DNA of 54,285 nucleotides, taken from contig NZ_FUGD01000075.1 of assembly GCF_900162815.1 (NCBI RefSeq), positions 1 to 54,285 of the forward strand. Direction: 5' to 3'. Below the pieces are notes generated by a model. The model was given only the letters and a program-made list of their open reading frames with translations. It did not search any database and was not told the DNA's origin. The DNA comes from Psychrobacter pasteurii. GTDB lineage: Bacteria; Pseudomonadota; Gammaproteobacteria; Pseudomonadales; Moraxellaceae. Each line of letters opens with the position of its first letter. The first letter of the stretch is position 1. The position numbers and the translations under genes were made by a program. Of this stretch, positions 15,563 to 19,261 are shown one piece after another.

Positions 15563-15623
15563 ATAATAGTTTAAACTATAATCATAAGTCAATAGCTTTA
15601 ACAATAAAAATAGTTTAAACTTT
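15563..15623 (-). promoter_or_regulatory. OL/PL-like control region: three repressor operators and leftward promoter
   Basis: Three 14-bp palindromic sites: 15566-15579 (perfect ATAGTTTAAACTAT), 15592-15605 (11 of 14 matching) and 15610-15623 (13 of 14). The minus-strand promoter has -35 TTGACT (15587-15592) and -10 TATTAT (15563-15568) with an 18-bp spacer. The perfect operator lies between the two elements, so bound repressor would block it. The same motif recurs at the repressor/cro junction. Confidence 0.82.
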
Positions 15624-15658: not shown

Positions 15659-15677
15659 AACCGCCACTCGGGCGGTT
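15659..15677 (-). terminator. terminator insulating OL from the accessory cassette
   Basis: Hairpin AACCGCC / GGCGGTT with a run of T on the minus strand (seven A at 15654-15660 on plus). It stops minus-strand transcripts coming from the 16309-18190 genes before they enter the leftward operon. Confidence 0.85.
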
Positions 15678-15762: not shown

Positions 15763-15939
15763 ATGAAAACTTGGTCAGCACTGCTTATCTCTATGCTTAT
15801 GATGGCGCCAGTAATGGAAGCGAATGCTCGTAACCAACCGTGCTCTAAAAGCATGGGCGGAGTCTCGCACTGTAAGGACGGCAAGTTTGTCTGTAAAAAT
15901 GGCAAAATCAGTAAGTCTAAGCAAGTGTGTAAGATGTAA
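15763..15939 (+). CDS. small secreted cysteine-rich YdcA-like protein
   Basis: 58 residues, too short for usual length cut-offs. The signal peptide (MKTWSALLISMLMMAPVMEANA, about 1-22) is followed by a 36-residue mature part with four cysteines (27, 37, 44, 56): the pattern PCS...GGVSHC..GKFVC.NGKIS.SK..C. From memory this matches E. coli YdcA (PCSGSKGGISHC...FVCNDGSISASK), a small protein of unknown function. Two disulphides are expected in the periplasm. ATG 15763 follows AGATGGTGG. It is read opposite to the neighbouring cassette and has its own terminator, so it looks like an independently expressed lysogen gene. Confidence 0.82.
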   Translation: MKTWSALLISMLMMAPVMEANARNQPCSKSMGGVSHCKDGKFVCKNGKISKSKQVCKM

Positions 15940-16067
15940 GGCAGTAGTTTAAGAATATAGTCATAGGCAACTAAATGAGATGCGAGGCAACCGATCTCAA
16001 GTACTACTATATCAGGCTTAGTAAGGTTAACGCTGTAGCTCTTTAATTTATCTACGACTATATGTTG

Positions 16068-16104
16068 ATACCTATCAGCTCGTTTGTTGATAGGTATTTT
16101 TTTT
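16068..16104 (+). terminator. terminator of the YdcA-like gene
   Basis: Perfect 10-bp stem ATACCTATCA / TGATAGGTAT with a 10-nt loop and eight T. It lies 128 bp after the stop codon. The stretch 15940-16067 and the stretch 16105-16308 show no supported gene. Confidence 0.88.
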
Positions 16105-16308: not shown

Positions 16309-16761
16309 TTAAATCAGCTTATAAAGTTTTGCAATTATTTCGCTTGAGCGAATATACATAATGGAGATAATCTCATCTCTGTCTACCATCATGTTTTGAG
16401 AGTTTAATTGAATATTTGAAGGGGACTCAATTGGAGTCTTTAGCTCAATAAACTCAAATAAGTTACTACAATCTGCTTTCAAAGCTGTAAAGTCTACGCC
16501 GCTTAAAGCTATAAACGGAAACGGTGCGCATTTAATAAATTTATCCACTGTCTGGGTTAGAATTAATTTATTAAATTGATACTCTCCATTAGAGGGGGTA
16601 TATGGCACTGTATGACAAGAATTAACAACGAGTTCATTTAAGTTATCCAGTCTATTTACAATTTCATCAATACATCTGTGTTGCTTGCTTTTTGCATTCT
16701 GATGATGGAAAAATGCTATAGCAAATAGTAAAGGTATTAGAGTATTAAGAAATGCAAACAT
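16309..16761 (-). CDS. membrane-anchored protein, third gene of the rexAB-position cassette
   Basis: 150 residues, unrecognised. One hydrophobic helix at the N-terminus (about 1-18, FAFLNTLIPLLFAIAFF) followed by a soluble part with five cysteines and an alpha-helical look. The positive residues after the helix (HHQNAKSKQHR) suggest the soluble part stays in the cytoplasm. The gene lies 33 bp after the STAS-like gene on the same strand, so it is probably the third cistron of the cassette. In lambda the equivalent place holds the membrane protein RexB; similarity in sequence is not claimed. Confidence 0.7.
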   Translation of the reverse strand: MFAFLNTLIPLLFAIAFFHHQNAKSKQHRCIDEIVNRLDNLNELVVNSCHTVPYTPSNGEYQFNKLILTQTVDKFIKCAPFPFIALSGVDFTALKADCSNLFEFIELKTPIESPSNIQLNSQNMMVDRDEIISIMYIRSSEIIAKLYKLI

Positions 16762-16794
16762 TAAGCGCCTGTGTATTGGAAATATATAAAGCCA

Positions 16795-17112
16795 TTAGGC
16801 CTCTGAAACGTATCTTTTCACTTTCTCACGAATTTCAGGATATTCATTTGCTACGATCTCGAACTTATTGAAAAACTGACTTTTAGATATTTTTTTCTCT
16901 CGAATCAATCCAGCAAAAGCTTGTTCTAGAAAAGACGAGCCAGCAGCCAAAACCCCATCGAAATTAATTATGATTTTTTCATCTTCAGGTACTTTTTCAA
17001 TTTCTCTTATCAGAATCTCATAAAAATGATCGCCTGTGTAGCTACCATCACTGCGGTGCCTTCCTGAAGGCATTAACGAAAAATCGTTAGCAACATTAAT
17101 TATAGACATCAT
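16795..17112 (-). CDS. STAS-like protein (DUF4325)
   Basis: 105 residues. The core IIINFDGVLAAGSSFLEQAFAGLIRE (47-72) is the hallmark of the DUF4325 STAS-like family: a strand, a D/G turn, then GSSFLEEAFGGL. STAS domains often work as switchable partners of GHKL-type kinases (SpoIIAA/SpoIIAB), where a serine in the GSS position is phosphorylated; Ser59 and Ser60 are candidates here. The gene lies 10 bp downstream of a gene for a HATPase protein, supporting a partner pair. Substrate and output are unknown. Confidence 0.85.
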   Translation of the reverse strand: MMSIINVANDFSLMPSGRHRSDGSYTGDHFYEILIREIEKVPEDEKIIINFDGVLAAGSSFLEQAFAGLIREKKISKSQFFNKFEIVANEYPEIREKVKRYVSEA

Positions 17113-17122
17113 CTTAAATTCC

Positions 17123-18190
17123 TTATACGAGCTGGATTACCCATGAAATAACAGTACCATCAATTTTTGAAGTGAAATCTTCAAGATTTTTCTTTAATGA
17201 TCTTTCTCTAAAACTACCATCTGAATTTGATTCAAGTAAGTAACTACCATATTTACTTAACACGGATGTATGAACCCTAGAGATTTCTGGAAATTCATTA
17301 GTGTTTTTAACAAGGTTTAGAATATCATCAAACCCTTGGCCTCTACCTTTCACTTTAGTACTGGTGGAGTTTAAGTATGTAGCATATTTGATAAGCTGAG
17401 AGTCTTTGAGCTTTCTCAATGAATCTAAATCTTTAGACGCACCTATAAAAATATCTTTTGCATTAGCTATTGTACCCTCTAAAGTATTCATAATAGATAC
17501 TGGAGCTGTATAAGGGATGGTCACTCCTAAATCAGAGACTACTACCGAAATAGACCTATCATCGATATGGGTTAGGACATACCACTTGTTATATTGATCG
17601 TCATGATAAGCGTGATGTATGACGTTGTTTATAGCCTCACTAATAGCTGTAACTAGCCTAAAATGAACTGTTGGATCCTTAAACATCTTTTTAAGATCGT
17701 GGATGTGACGTACCATATCATCAGGTAAATCGGAGGTATAACCACTAAACATAGACCAATTATCAACACTAGACTTAAAGTTGGTTTTATTAACGTCTTT
17801 AAATCCAAAGTTTTTATTTAATTTTAAAAGTTTAAAAACCGCTCTAGGTATTAGGCTTTTACTATTACGAGACTTAAATCTTACATTACGGTCTTTATAT
17901 TTATCTAATACATGAACTATATGGAGAGCAGTCAAAGGATTAATAGTTTCTAAATCAATAAAATTAAGATATAAGCTATCAAATGTATTATTAGGTATAG
18001 ACTTCAATATTTTAATAATTTTATTTCTTTCTGAAGGAACAAATAAACTAAGTTTACTAGAGAATTTAATCCGTTCTTTCTTCATATTATCAGTTCTATT
18101 GTTACGGCTCTGTAATTTTCTTTGTCTTATATTGTATTTTACAATCCGCTGTCTTTGTTTTTCAGAAATTTTCTTCATCAATGTATGCAC
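17123..18190 (-). CDS. STAS-like / HATPase (GHKL) fusion protein
   Basis: 355 residues. A basic N-terminus (1-40) is followed by a STAS-like half (about 45-125; SLYLNFIDLETINPLTALHIV). The GHKL ATPase part (about 155-355) has an N-box EAINN (185-189), a G1 box SDLGVTIP (219-226), a GRGQGF loop (282-287) and a C-terminal GT strand (345-355). No histidine-kinase dimer helix or receiver is seen, so it looks like a Ser-kinase/anti-sigma style ATPase rather than a two-component sensor. The start is GTG 18190 or ATG 18178; neither has a clear ribosome binding site. First gene of the three-gene cassette in the rexAB position behind the repressor gene. Confidence 0.83.
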   Translation of the reverse strand: MHTLMKKISEKQRQRIVKYNIRQRKLQSRNNRTDNMKKERIKFSSKLSLFVPSERNKIIKILKSIPNNTFDSLYLNFIDLETINPLTALHIVHVLDKYKDRNVRFKSRNSKSLIPRAVFKLLKLNKNFGFKDVNKTNFKSSVDNWSMFSGYTSDLPDDMVRHIHDLKKMFKDPTVHFRLVTAISEAINNVIHHAYHDDQYNKWYVLTHIDDRSISVVVSDLGVTIPYTAPVSIMNTLEGTIANAKDIFIGASKDLDSLRKLKDSQLIKYATYLNSTSTKVKGRGQGFDDILNLVKNTNEFPEISRVHTSVLSKYGSYLLESNSDGSFRERSLKKNLEDFTSKIDGTVISWVIQLV

Positions 18191-18386
18191 TTTAATTTTT
18201 GGGTATACGTATTAGGGCGTCTCCTCATTTTGGAAATTGAAATAAAATAAGGTAGATCGCAGTTAAATAGGGAACACAATGCAATAAATTTCGGGGTGTT
18301 TATCAGCTATTTGCTCCACTATTACAAGATTTAGTTATTTTTTGTCCCATTTAAATGCGGTTTTATGAATTAAAGACACGCCTAGT

Positions 18387-18416
18387 ATAATACACATTTA
18401 CAGTCTGATATGACAA
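18387..18416 (-). promoter_or_regulatory. candidate promoter for the STAS/HATPase cassette
   Basis: Minus-strand -35 TTGTCA (18411-18416), 18-bp spacer, -10 TATTAT (18387-18392). It lies directly downstream of the repressor gene and would give a leader of about 190 nt. No repressor operator overlaps it, so it could be active in the lysogen. Confidence 0.55.
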
Positions 18417-18437: not shown

Positions 18438-19157
18438 CTAATGCTGTGCAAACGTATATCGTACGCGGCCAAACAACCTAAACTGGCTAAAAGTATCTCT
18501 GCTAATGATTTGGTCAGGGTACGTATCTTTGTCTGCATTATCTGATTTGAGCACCACACTACCGTCTAAGTTCTTCACTGCACGCTTACAGATCATCTCC
18601 CCATCAGCATTGAATACATAAATCTTATTGTTAATAAAGTTGTCGTATTCGCTCTCATTGGTATTGACGAGCATTAGTGTGCCATGCGGTATCGTGTACC
18701 CCATACTGTCACTGCAGGCATGCATAAGTATTAGGCCTTTACCATCTGTAGGCAGGTTGTTATTCCTTAAAAACTCTACTGTAAATGATTGAGTGTGGGC
18801 CTCAGGGTTTTCTTCATTGACGTAACCTGGGCCACAGCTCGCTTTGATGTCTAAATAGGGGATTTTCACAAGAGGGTATTTTGTGCTTCCCCCAATAAGA
18901 ATTACAGCCCCTTCTGCTAATAGATCCGCCTGGTTCGCCTCTGAACCTTTTTTAGCTTTGCCTTTGCCATAGACCAACCAATCGACATCGACCTTTAGTA
19001 CGTTCGCAATTTCATTTATATAGCGCGACCGCTGAGTCTTGCCAGATTCTAATTGGTAGTAACTGGGTTGCTTCATACCTACAGCTTCAGCAACTTCACT
19101 TTGAGACATGTTTAGCTGCTCTCTAGCGTACTTAAGTCTTTCAGGCAACGTATTCAT
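18438..19157 (-). CDS. CI/LexA-type phage repressor with S24 peptidase domain
   Basis: Maintains lysogeny by binding the ATAGTTTAAACTAT operators. Of 239 residues, 1-65 are an HTH_3 domain (LNMSQSEVAEAVGMKQPSYYQLESGKTQ). The C-terminal half is an S24 autopeptidase: probable cleavage site Cys108-Gly109 in KASCGPG, nucleophile Ser151 in ACSDSMG, and Lys191 in EMICKRAV. RecA-stimulated self-cleavage, hence SOS induction, is expected. Divergent from the cro-like gene across a 132-bp operator region. Confidence 0.95.
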   Translation of the reverse strand: MNTLPERLKYAREQLNMSQSEVAEAVGMKQPSYYQLESGKTQRSRYINEIANVLKVDVDWLVYGKGKAKKGSEANQADLLAEGAVILIGGSTKYPLVKIPYLDIKASCGPGYVNEENPEAHTQSFTVEFLRNNNLPTDGKGLILMHACSDSMGYTIPHGTLMLVNTNESEYDNFINNKIYVFNADGEMICKRAVKNLDGSVVLKSDNADKDTYPDQIISRDTFSQFRLFGRVRYTFAQH

Positions 19158-19190: not shown

Positions 19191-19261
19191 ATTTTATAGC
19201 TAAAACTATAACTAATCAAAAAGTTAAAACTATTGCTTAATTATAGTTTAAACAATATAAT
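19191..19261. promoter_or_regulatory. OR-like control region: three operators, PRM and PR
   Basis: Operators at 19196-19209, 19220-19233 and 19243-19256 (each 12 of 14 matches to ATAGTTTAAACTAT), spaced 24 and 23 bp centre to centre. Rightward PR: -35 TTGCTT (19233-19238), 17 bp, -10 TATAAT (19256-19261). Leftward PRM: -35 TTGATT (19214-19219), 17 bp, -10 TAAAAT (19191-19196). The right operator lies inside PR, the left one inside PRM and the middle one touches both -35 elements, the lambda OR geometry. Confidence 0.88.

Follow-up and report, generated by a model that had tools for sequence, protein, structure and literature searches.

What do three adjoining genes for a predicted kinase, its probable substrate and a membrane protein do directly behind the repressor gene of a prophage? 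The question is raised by a 54,285-nucleotide stretch of Psychrobacter pasteurii DNA (contig NZ_FUGD01000075.1, positions 1 to 54,285), which was analyzed as a whole and is referred to below as the window. The three genes follow one another on its minus strand. Gene 1 (17123..18190) encodes a STAS-GHKL serine-kinase-like protein of 355 amino acids (aa), or 351 aa from the probable true start, an ATG at 18178. Gene 2 (16795..17112) encodes a 105-aa STAS-like protein of family PF14213 (DUF4325), the probable kinase substrate, and gene 3 (16309..16761) a 150-aa candidate effector with a single N-terminal membrane helix.

A gene for a CI-like repressor with HTH_3 and Peptidase_S24 domains (18438..19157, minus strand) lies directly upstream of gene 1 on the same strand. 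The window holds a prophage, because a 100% identical copy of its kinase gene was found in a viral collection, on a contig of 40,544 bp (IMGVR_UViG_2850029222). A preliminary description of this DNA had proposed a three-gene STAS/HATPase/membrane cassette behind the repressor; the cassette is real, and its coordinates and domains were confirmed.

In the reading favored here, to which we give about even confidence, kinase, STAS protein and membrane effector form a mobile switch, probably expressed in the lysogen, that would work like the published VapKSC system with a different effector.

Conservation and spread of the cassette

With gene 2 as bait, 162 relatives were collected from genomes and 132 from viral contigs, and the best 80 of each were examined. 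Open reading frames (ORFs) were called mechanically, with approximate starts; a kinase was counted when an ORF of at least 290 aa lay directly upstream, and a third gene when an ORF of at least 120 aa followed within 60 bp. The genome and viral sets overlap, with the same prophage in both, and most of this overlap is removed in a set of 137 non-redundant loci.

All three genes were found together, in fixed order, at 65 of the 80 genome loci and 75 of the 80 viral loci. The kinase ORF was present at 69 genome loci, the others being cut by contig ends (five) or having a broken or missing kinase (six), and the third ORF at 74, with two loci at contig ends and four ORFs short or displaced. The corresponding viral counts were 77/80 and 78/80. 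Many of the 20 exceptions to the full trio are accounted for by a contig end or by a kinase that is broken or absent, and contig ends explain the lack of a full kinase at five genome and two viral loci.

With the kinase as bait, in a set selected on its G1 box, gene 2 and a following ORF were found at 49 of 50 loci on viral contigs (two such ORFs were shortened), and the sole exception ends at a contig edge. Chance neighborhood as an explanation of the trio is ruled out by this co-occurrence in both gene 2- and kinase-baited loci. The genes thus do occur together elsewhere, the point on which the preliminary description had let its proposal depend, and the cassette is a conserved operon.

At 7 of the 137 non-redundant loci, genes 2 and 3 were kept although the kinase was broken or absent, with no contig end to explain it. 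Such retention would be expected if gene 2 had to stay wherever gene 3 is present.

The cassette is sparse within taxa and taxonomically wide, which is the pattern of mobile cargo. Records of the genome set span Pseudomonadota, Clostridia, Paludibacteraceae and two metagenome-assembled genomes (MAGs), a Cytophagales MAG and a Phycisphaerae MAG. Within the genus, 2 of 105 genomes had a kinase relative; within the family it was 13 of 299 and within the phylum, at E ≤ 1e-3, 16 of 398, several of the last being weak. Sequenced isolates have few close copies of the window kinase, with matches in 1 of 50,697 records for phages and 3 of 72,556 for plasmids, and another query added one plasmid. The trio, its gene order kept, is carried by three plasmids and one phage, and also by a fourth plasmid; in one of the first four copies the kinase is truncated behind an insertion sequence.

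The Psychrobacter submarinus copy is on a contig of 1.4 Mb, apparently outside a prophage as judged from the near flanks, beside a gene that we take, by eye, to be gatB. It was also found on other megabase genome contigs, some of them possibly prophages. Two further loci, L235 (896-2415) and L238 (1100-2334), hold divergent pairs of a kinase and a DUF4325 protein with no adjoining third gene of the cassette kind; these are possibly further output types of the same kinase-STAS core.

Gene 1: a predicted STAS-GHKL kinase

The gene 1 protein comprises a basic N-terminal helix (residues 10-35), a STAS-like domain (about 40-128) and a GHKL domain (about 145-354). Its structure prediction was confident (pLDDT 87.8), and both folds were seen in the model, whose N-terminal part is a single long helix. 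The VIA-align neighbors with the highest Z were SpoIIAB, RsbW and UsfX. UsfX, like the other two, phosphorylates a STAS serine.

Six GHKL positions (E185, N189, D220, G222, G284 and G286) were invariant in all 123 kinases compared, which were taken from the gene 2-baited set and the first matches. The N-box (E185..N189..H193; 17612..17638, minus strand) contains two of these positions together with H193 (122/123), and its Glu and Asn are presumably the general base and the Mg ligand. In the G1 box (17513..17533, minus strand), D220-x-G222 is followed by I225 (117/123) and P226 (104/123), and the G2 box, RGQG (17333..17344, minus strand), holds G284 and G286. A kinase fold and conserved GHKL catalytic positions are present in gene 1, and kinase activity is predicted from sequence and model. 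The conserved GHKL positions, the confident GHKL fold and the nearness of the model to SpoIIAB and RsbW agree with the earlier view that STAS and GHKL ATPase are parts of partner-switching systems.

By sequence, the best match of gene 1 among solved structures was SpoIIAB, weak at E 0.039; by profile, the best was a ferritin (E 0.013), with RsbW at 0.02. No helix-turn-helix (HTH) family was matched by gene 1 or gene 2 in the Pfam scan at E ≤ 1. The kinase N-terminus is strongly basic: in 103 of 107 proteins, residues 1-45 carry a charge of at least +5. At two loci (L231 and L233) the kinase ORFs upstream of gene 2 reach 635 and 501 codons; the additional N-terminal stretch may be nothing more than an open frame that runs too long because the DNA is GC-rich.

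Gene 2 and the relation to VapKSC

Gene 2 encodes a single 105-aa domain, and the Pfam scan placed it in PF14213 (DUF4325), as named in the preliminary description. Its best profile match in the Protein Data Bank was VapS (9z7o), weak at E 0.055. Ser59 of gene 2 is in register with a serine of VapS and with one of a VapS relative. The VapS residue should be Ser48 if the crystal chain bears an 18-residue tag; the 9z7o chain has 134 residues, and a VapS length of 116 was deduced from the text of PMC13373217.

The Ser59-Ser60 codons (16933..16938, minus strand) form the candidate phosphorylation site. The gene 2 loci had been picked by a motif with Ser60 and with Ser or Arg at position 59, so conservation there is by construction, and the case for Ser60 comes only from 23 unique sequences that were baited with the kinase and do not belong to that set. 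In these, selected without the serine motif, Ser60 was present in 23/23 and position 59 was Ser in 19.

Comparison by sequence with solved structures gave three unrelated weak matches for gene 2, and the Pfam scan gave no match to a DNA-binding family. The gene 2 profile matches 6423 clusters of a large protein database, a count made irrespective of genomic context. A search of a viral fold library returned DUF4325 proteins and, weakly, HP1 orf1 (E 0.07), in whose neighborhood no full-length kinase gene was found. Of 185 genomes of the class, 28 have DUF4325. It also occurs C-terminally in longer proteins, among them several open frames of at least 344 aa and L280, which by eye resembles HTH-HATPase-DUF4325; such proteins may combine kinase and substrate in a single chain.

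The precedent for the cassette is VapKSC, published in June 2026 by Chambers et al. (PMC13373217). According to the main text of that paper, VapS inhibits the toxin VapC, a phospho-mimic at Ser48 of VapS abolishes this inhibition, and cells are protected against phage Bas42 by the operon, by about 2 logs. The same text describes CapKS as a DNA-damage-responsive transcription switch, in which CapK, carrying an HTH, is activated by single-stranded DNA (ssDNA) and phosphorylates CapS at a conserved Ser, and the winged HTH of CapS represses a downstream immune operon. An aromatic residue contacts ssDNA in both kinases, F54 in VapK and W68 in CapK (PMC13373217).

A VapKSC-type operon (L275) was found via a stretch of VapS and consists of genes for a 290-aa kinase, a 115-aa PF14213 protein and a 180-aa PIN protein. 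The L275 kinase has no Pfam match at E ≤ 0.01 and was named from its position and from its alignment with the cassette kinase family. The profile of that family aligned with it in hhalign at a probability of 96.9 (E 1.9e-10), across STAS and GHKL; the comparison concerns this kinase and not the published VapK. PF14213 is common to window gene 2 and two VapS relatives (L275 and L276). The third-gene family, compared with the L275 PIN protein, gave an hhalign probability of 0.4, that is, no match.

The cassette therefore resembles VapKSC in having a STAS-GHKL kinase, a STAS protein and a third protein in the same order, with the candidate Ser59 in register with the VapS serine. It differs in its third protein, which has a single membrane helix where VapKSC has a PIN nuclease, in its longer kinase (355 versus 290 aa) with a basic N-terminal helix, and in its recurrence in prophages behind the repressor. 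Membership in VapKSC proper was ruled out, as the third gene encodes no PIN domain. The same switch with a membrane effector is the simplest reading, because kinase, STAS protein and gene order are kept and the third protein is swapped.

CapK and CapS likewise combine a STAS-GHKL kinase with an adjoining STAS substrate (a probable one in the cassette), but they carry an HTH and a winged HTH, respectively, whereas cassette gene 2 is a lone STAS-like domain and is followed by a third gene.

The two VapS relatives were found among 369 genomes of the class (2/369). The ORF next to the L276 relative is PIN-like by eye and has no Pfam match at E ≤ 0.01. In its main text, the VapKSC paper (PMC13373217) never uses the name PF14213.

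The preliminary description knew of no described system of this make-up. VapKSC, close in make-up, overturns that statement in part (PMC13373217); it may still hold for the version with a membrane protein, which was not found described in the open-licence literature searched, apart from unexplained Francisella phage genes. The gene table for Francisella phage KIRK lists a CI repressor, an AS1-like 293-aa protein, a DUF4325 protein and a small transmembrane protein, which is the cassette order behind a repressor; in that table the genes are hypothetical and no function is given (PMC7924643). In Marinobacter phage AS1 the three cassette genes lie behind a small HTH gene.

Gene 3: a membrane-anchored third protein

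The predicted transmembrane helix of window gene 3 covers residues 1-19 (16705..16761, minus strand), with a mean hydropathy of 1.92 over 19 residues. A stretch reaching at least 1.6 was found in 84 of 132 third proteins and in 0 of 137 gene 2 proteins. At least 1.2 was reached by 119 of the 132, against about 68 expected from shuffles, a control made at this threshold only, and in 104 of these 119 the stretch starts within the first 45 residues. The membrane anchor assigned earlier to the window protein is thus upheld, and mostly shared by its relatives. The charge after the helix was more positive than before it in 85 of 101 third proteins and equal in 4, which suggests a cytoplasmic C-terminal domain.

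The third gene is the fastest-diverging member of the trio, with a median pairwise identity of 0.15, compared with 0.24 for the kinases and 0.42 for gene 2 (6670 pairs, 116 loci). At E ≤ 1e-3, 129 of 136 third proteins form one single-linkage group. The window protein and that of P. submarinus, aligned together with the family profile in hhalign, gave a probability of 67 (E 5e-5, 127 columns), and window gene 3 appears to be at best a divergent member of the family.

The Pfam search with third proteins gave 109 families at E ≤ 0.1, and among the 25 listed none matched more than 2 of 96 members; there was no PIN match in the scan. In PADLOC-DB 2.0.0 (2023) the three window proteins had no match at E ≤ 1. 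The 96 third proteins gave scattered PADLOC matches to 15 families at E ≤ 0.01, the commonest being LeoBC in five proteins (best 0.0012), and one single protein matched a cyclase model at 2e-7.

The third protein of locus L080, chosen to represent the family, was modeled in a single chain with its gene 2 protein, read through the natural stop; in this model it forms one 57-residue helix and three more helices. The fold search with that model returned helical bundles only, of many kinds, and VapS was absent among the matches listed.

In two of six near-identical prophage copies (L093 and L095; the others are L091, L092, L094 and L096) a frameshift removes the N-terminal membrane helix of gene 3, with kinase and gene 2 open. 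Intact copies exist, and the frameshift is either a real inactivation or a sequencing error.

Position behind the repressor

The rexAB genes of phage lambda, one of them for a membrane protein, follow the repressor gene on its own strand, and the cassette had been described as occupying this position. It does share that placement and likewise includes a membrane protein, but gene 3 has one helix, whereas RexB is a multi-helix membrane protein, and kinase-STAS parts are not known to belong to rex. No Rex family match was obtained in the Pfam or PHROGs scans of the window proteins; no direct comparison with RexA or RexB was made. The rex analogy is positional only.

Upstream genes were sampled from 119 loci at which the kinase is intact and the DNA before it long enough; a fitting ORF on the same strand was present at 107 of them, of which 103 were submitted. 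An S24 domain was found in 18 of 46 tested upstream same-strand genes of the viral set and in 6 of 58 of the mostly-genome set, with the window copy counted in each. Linkage to a repressor is a recurrent habit of phage-borne copies, not a rule, and the lambda-like position holds to that extent.

Expression of the cassette in the lysogen is plausible from the sequence, because no terminator-like site was found in the gap between repressor and gene 1, and the leftward unit is closed by an intrinsic terminator at 15659..15677 (minus strand), before the left operator. Gene 2 ends with a weak terminator-like site. Promoter-like matches in the cassette region numbered 17 versus 15.4 expected, i.e., no excess over chance; one of the two sites with most matches is in the repressor-kinase gap (18416-18387).

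Seven genomes of the genus besides the window's own carry a related repressor. One, at a contig end, was left out, and in the other six no cassette gene was found in about 4 kb downstream of the repressor. Two of these six loci (L290 and L291) have a similar 169-175-aa protein directly behind the repressor, and other small genes occupy the slot in the remaining ones. In prophages of the genus, the slot behind the repressor looks like a variable cargo site.

Proposed mechanism and alternatives

In the favored reading, the gene 2 protein would at rest bind and restrain the membrane-anchored gene 3 protein. The trigger, which would activate the gene 1 kinase, would most likely be ssDNA or some other nucleic acid that signals DNA damage or an attack by a phage. 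The kinase would then phosphorylate Ser59 or Ser60 of gene 2, the phosphorylated protein would release gene 3, and the released gene 3 protein would halt growth or kill the cell at the inner membrane before the invading phage completes.

Direct support exists for the conserved operon, the predicted kinase and STAS folds, the catalytic positions, the relation of the kinase to that of a VapKSC-type operon, the shared PF14213 and the hydrophobic helix of gene 3. Lysogen expression, phosphorylation, the trigger, the hold of gene 2 on gene 3, toxicity and the anti-phage effect are what we infer from these. The putative kinase-substrate step is well supported by the sequence relation, whereas the case for the effector step is made by the position of gene 3, its membrane helix, its fast divergence and the seven loci that keep genes 2 and 3 without an intact kinase. 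The earlier interpretation is partly supported: it was right in kind and, given VapKSC, no longer lacks a precedent, with sensing of an incoming phage, action at the membrane and an effect on superinfection all putative.

Several points weigh against this reading. Toxicity of gene 3 and a block of phages by the unit rest on inference, and the supposed binding of gene 3 by gene 2 is not borne out by the pseudo-complex from L080, which has confident domains (pLDDT 93.2) in an uncertain placement (pTM 0.54). With one membrane helix, a pore would require oligomers. The acceptor serine is unsettled, because Ser59 is replaced by Pro in 4 of the 23 motif-independent sequences and by Arg in 2 of 137, and the hhalign alignment of gene 2 with the VapS relative, in the same serine register, was weak (probability 18.5).

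The third proteins add to these points. Window gene 3 is not part of the 129-member group, pairs solely with the P. submarinus protein and was unmatched by the family HMM (hidden Markov model) at E ≤ 1. Five Acinetobacter-type third proteins gave an hhalign probability of 1.7 against the rest and of 0.1 against the window and P. submarinus pair. The common origin of all third genes is unproven, because the Acinetobacter-type proteins align neither to the window pair nor to the rest, and more than one family may be present at this position.

The divergence of gene 3 tracks that of the kinase (partial correlation 0.59) over that of gene 2 (0.15); with the kinase split into pieces, the partial correlations with gene 3 were low, at most 0.30 (first half of GHKL), with gene 2 at 0.16. 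Co-divergence did not single out a binding partner of gene 3. Finally, the third ORF was short or displaced at 4 of 137 loci (L002, probably with an unusual start codon, L021, L035 and L040). The loss asymmetry is slight, because these four compare with seven lost kinases, in a count whose loci were selected by gene 2.

Of the alternatives, the one that survives best, though unlikely, makes gene 3 a sensor or membrane anchor through which an envelope signal, e.g., phage DNA injection, controls the kinase, gene 2 relaying the signal to a host or prophage target. A sensor role also fits because the bundle in the model resembles receptor sensor domains, which are among its structural neighbors (helical bundles score high by chance). 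The charge pattern after the helix, however, suggests a cytoplasmic bundle, unlike periplasmic sensor domains; gene 3 is retained despite kinase loss at the 7 of 137 loci; and no regular fourth gene that could be the output was seen in the annotated loci.

Somewhat less probable than a sensor is a plain addiction or stability module, in which kinase, antitoxin and membrane toxin would maintain prophages and plasmids with no real anti-phage role. The plasmid copies near RelE/ParE-NadS and MazEF pairs, the occurrence in prophages as well, and the PIN toxin at position 3 of the VapKSC relative would suit such a module. On the other hand, VapKSC protects against a phage (PMC13373217), post-segregational killing should need no dedicated kinase, and the cassette also occurs on megabase genome contigs, some maybe prophages.

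A prophage-regulatory circuit, in which the kinase would sense SOS or ssDNA and tune the repressor or lysogeny via gene 2 without a part in defence, is improbable: the window cassette does lie directly behind an S24 repressor, S24 recurs upstream in the viral set (18/46), and CapKS is a DNA-damage-responsive transcription switch (PMC13373217), but S24 is found in only 6 of 58 upstream genes of the mostly-genome set, gene 2 matches no DNA-binding family and the third gene is almost always present.

SpoIIAB-SpoIIAA and RsbW-RsbV share with the cassette a kinase whose GHKL domain has N, G1 and G2 boxes, and SpoIIAB and RsbW phosphorylate STAS serines (PMC13373217). The cassette kinase differs in being fused to a STAS-like domain of its own, with a membrane protein as third member. 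No sigma factor was found within the cassette or annotated beside it at five annotated loci. An ordinary two-component or anti-sigma system was ruled out, with no sigma factor and no receiver seen in the cassette and the third gene near-constant.

Carried further, the switch with a membrane effector could be one case of a widespread, hitherto undescribed phospho-triggered membrane-effector class, a proposal held tentatively and at slightly less than even confidence. A kinase-STAS sensor core with interchangeable killers would then give temperate phages immunity against rival phages, often from the repressor-linked slot. The killers would be the PIN nuclease in VapKSC and the fast-diverging single-helix membrane protein in the cassette. 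If this is true, a function would be gained for many PF14213 (DUF4325) proteins and for a three-gene operon of prophages and some plasmids in several phyla, and the VapKSC idea of toxin release by a serine kinase would extend to a membrane effector. With so small and clean a cassette, what temperate phages encode behind the repressor becomes testable in the laboratory.

Operator-like sites and neighboring genes

Operator-like sites flank the region on both sides. The left pair (15567..15622) consists of an exact TAGTTTAAACTA at 15567 and a copy with one mismatch at 15611, and the right triplet (19197..19255) of copies at 19197 and 19221, with two mismatches each, and at 19244, with one. The window holds 10 matches to this palindrome at up to two mismatches, compared with 4.75 expected.

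Between gene 3 and the left operator, a 58-aa ORF (15763-15939, plus strand) lies on the opposite strand. Its start resembles a signal peptide by eye, and it contains several Cys. It matches no clear Pfam family (best E 0.065) and is followed by a strong terminator at 16067-16098.

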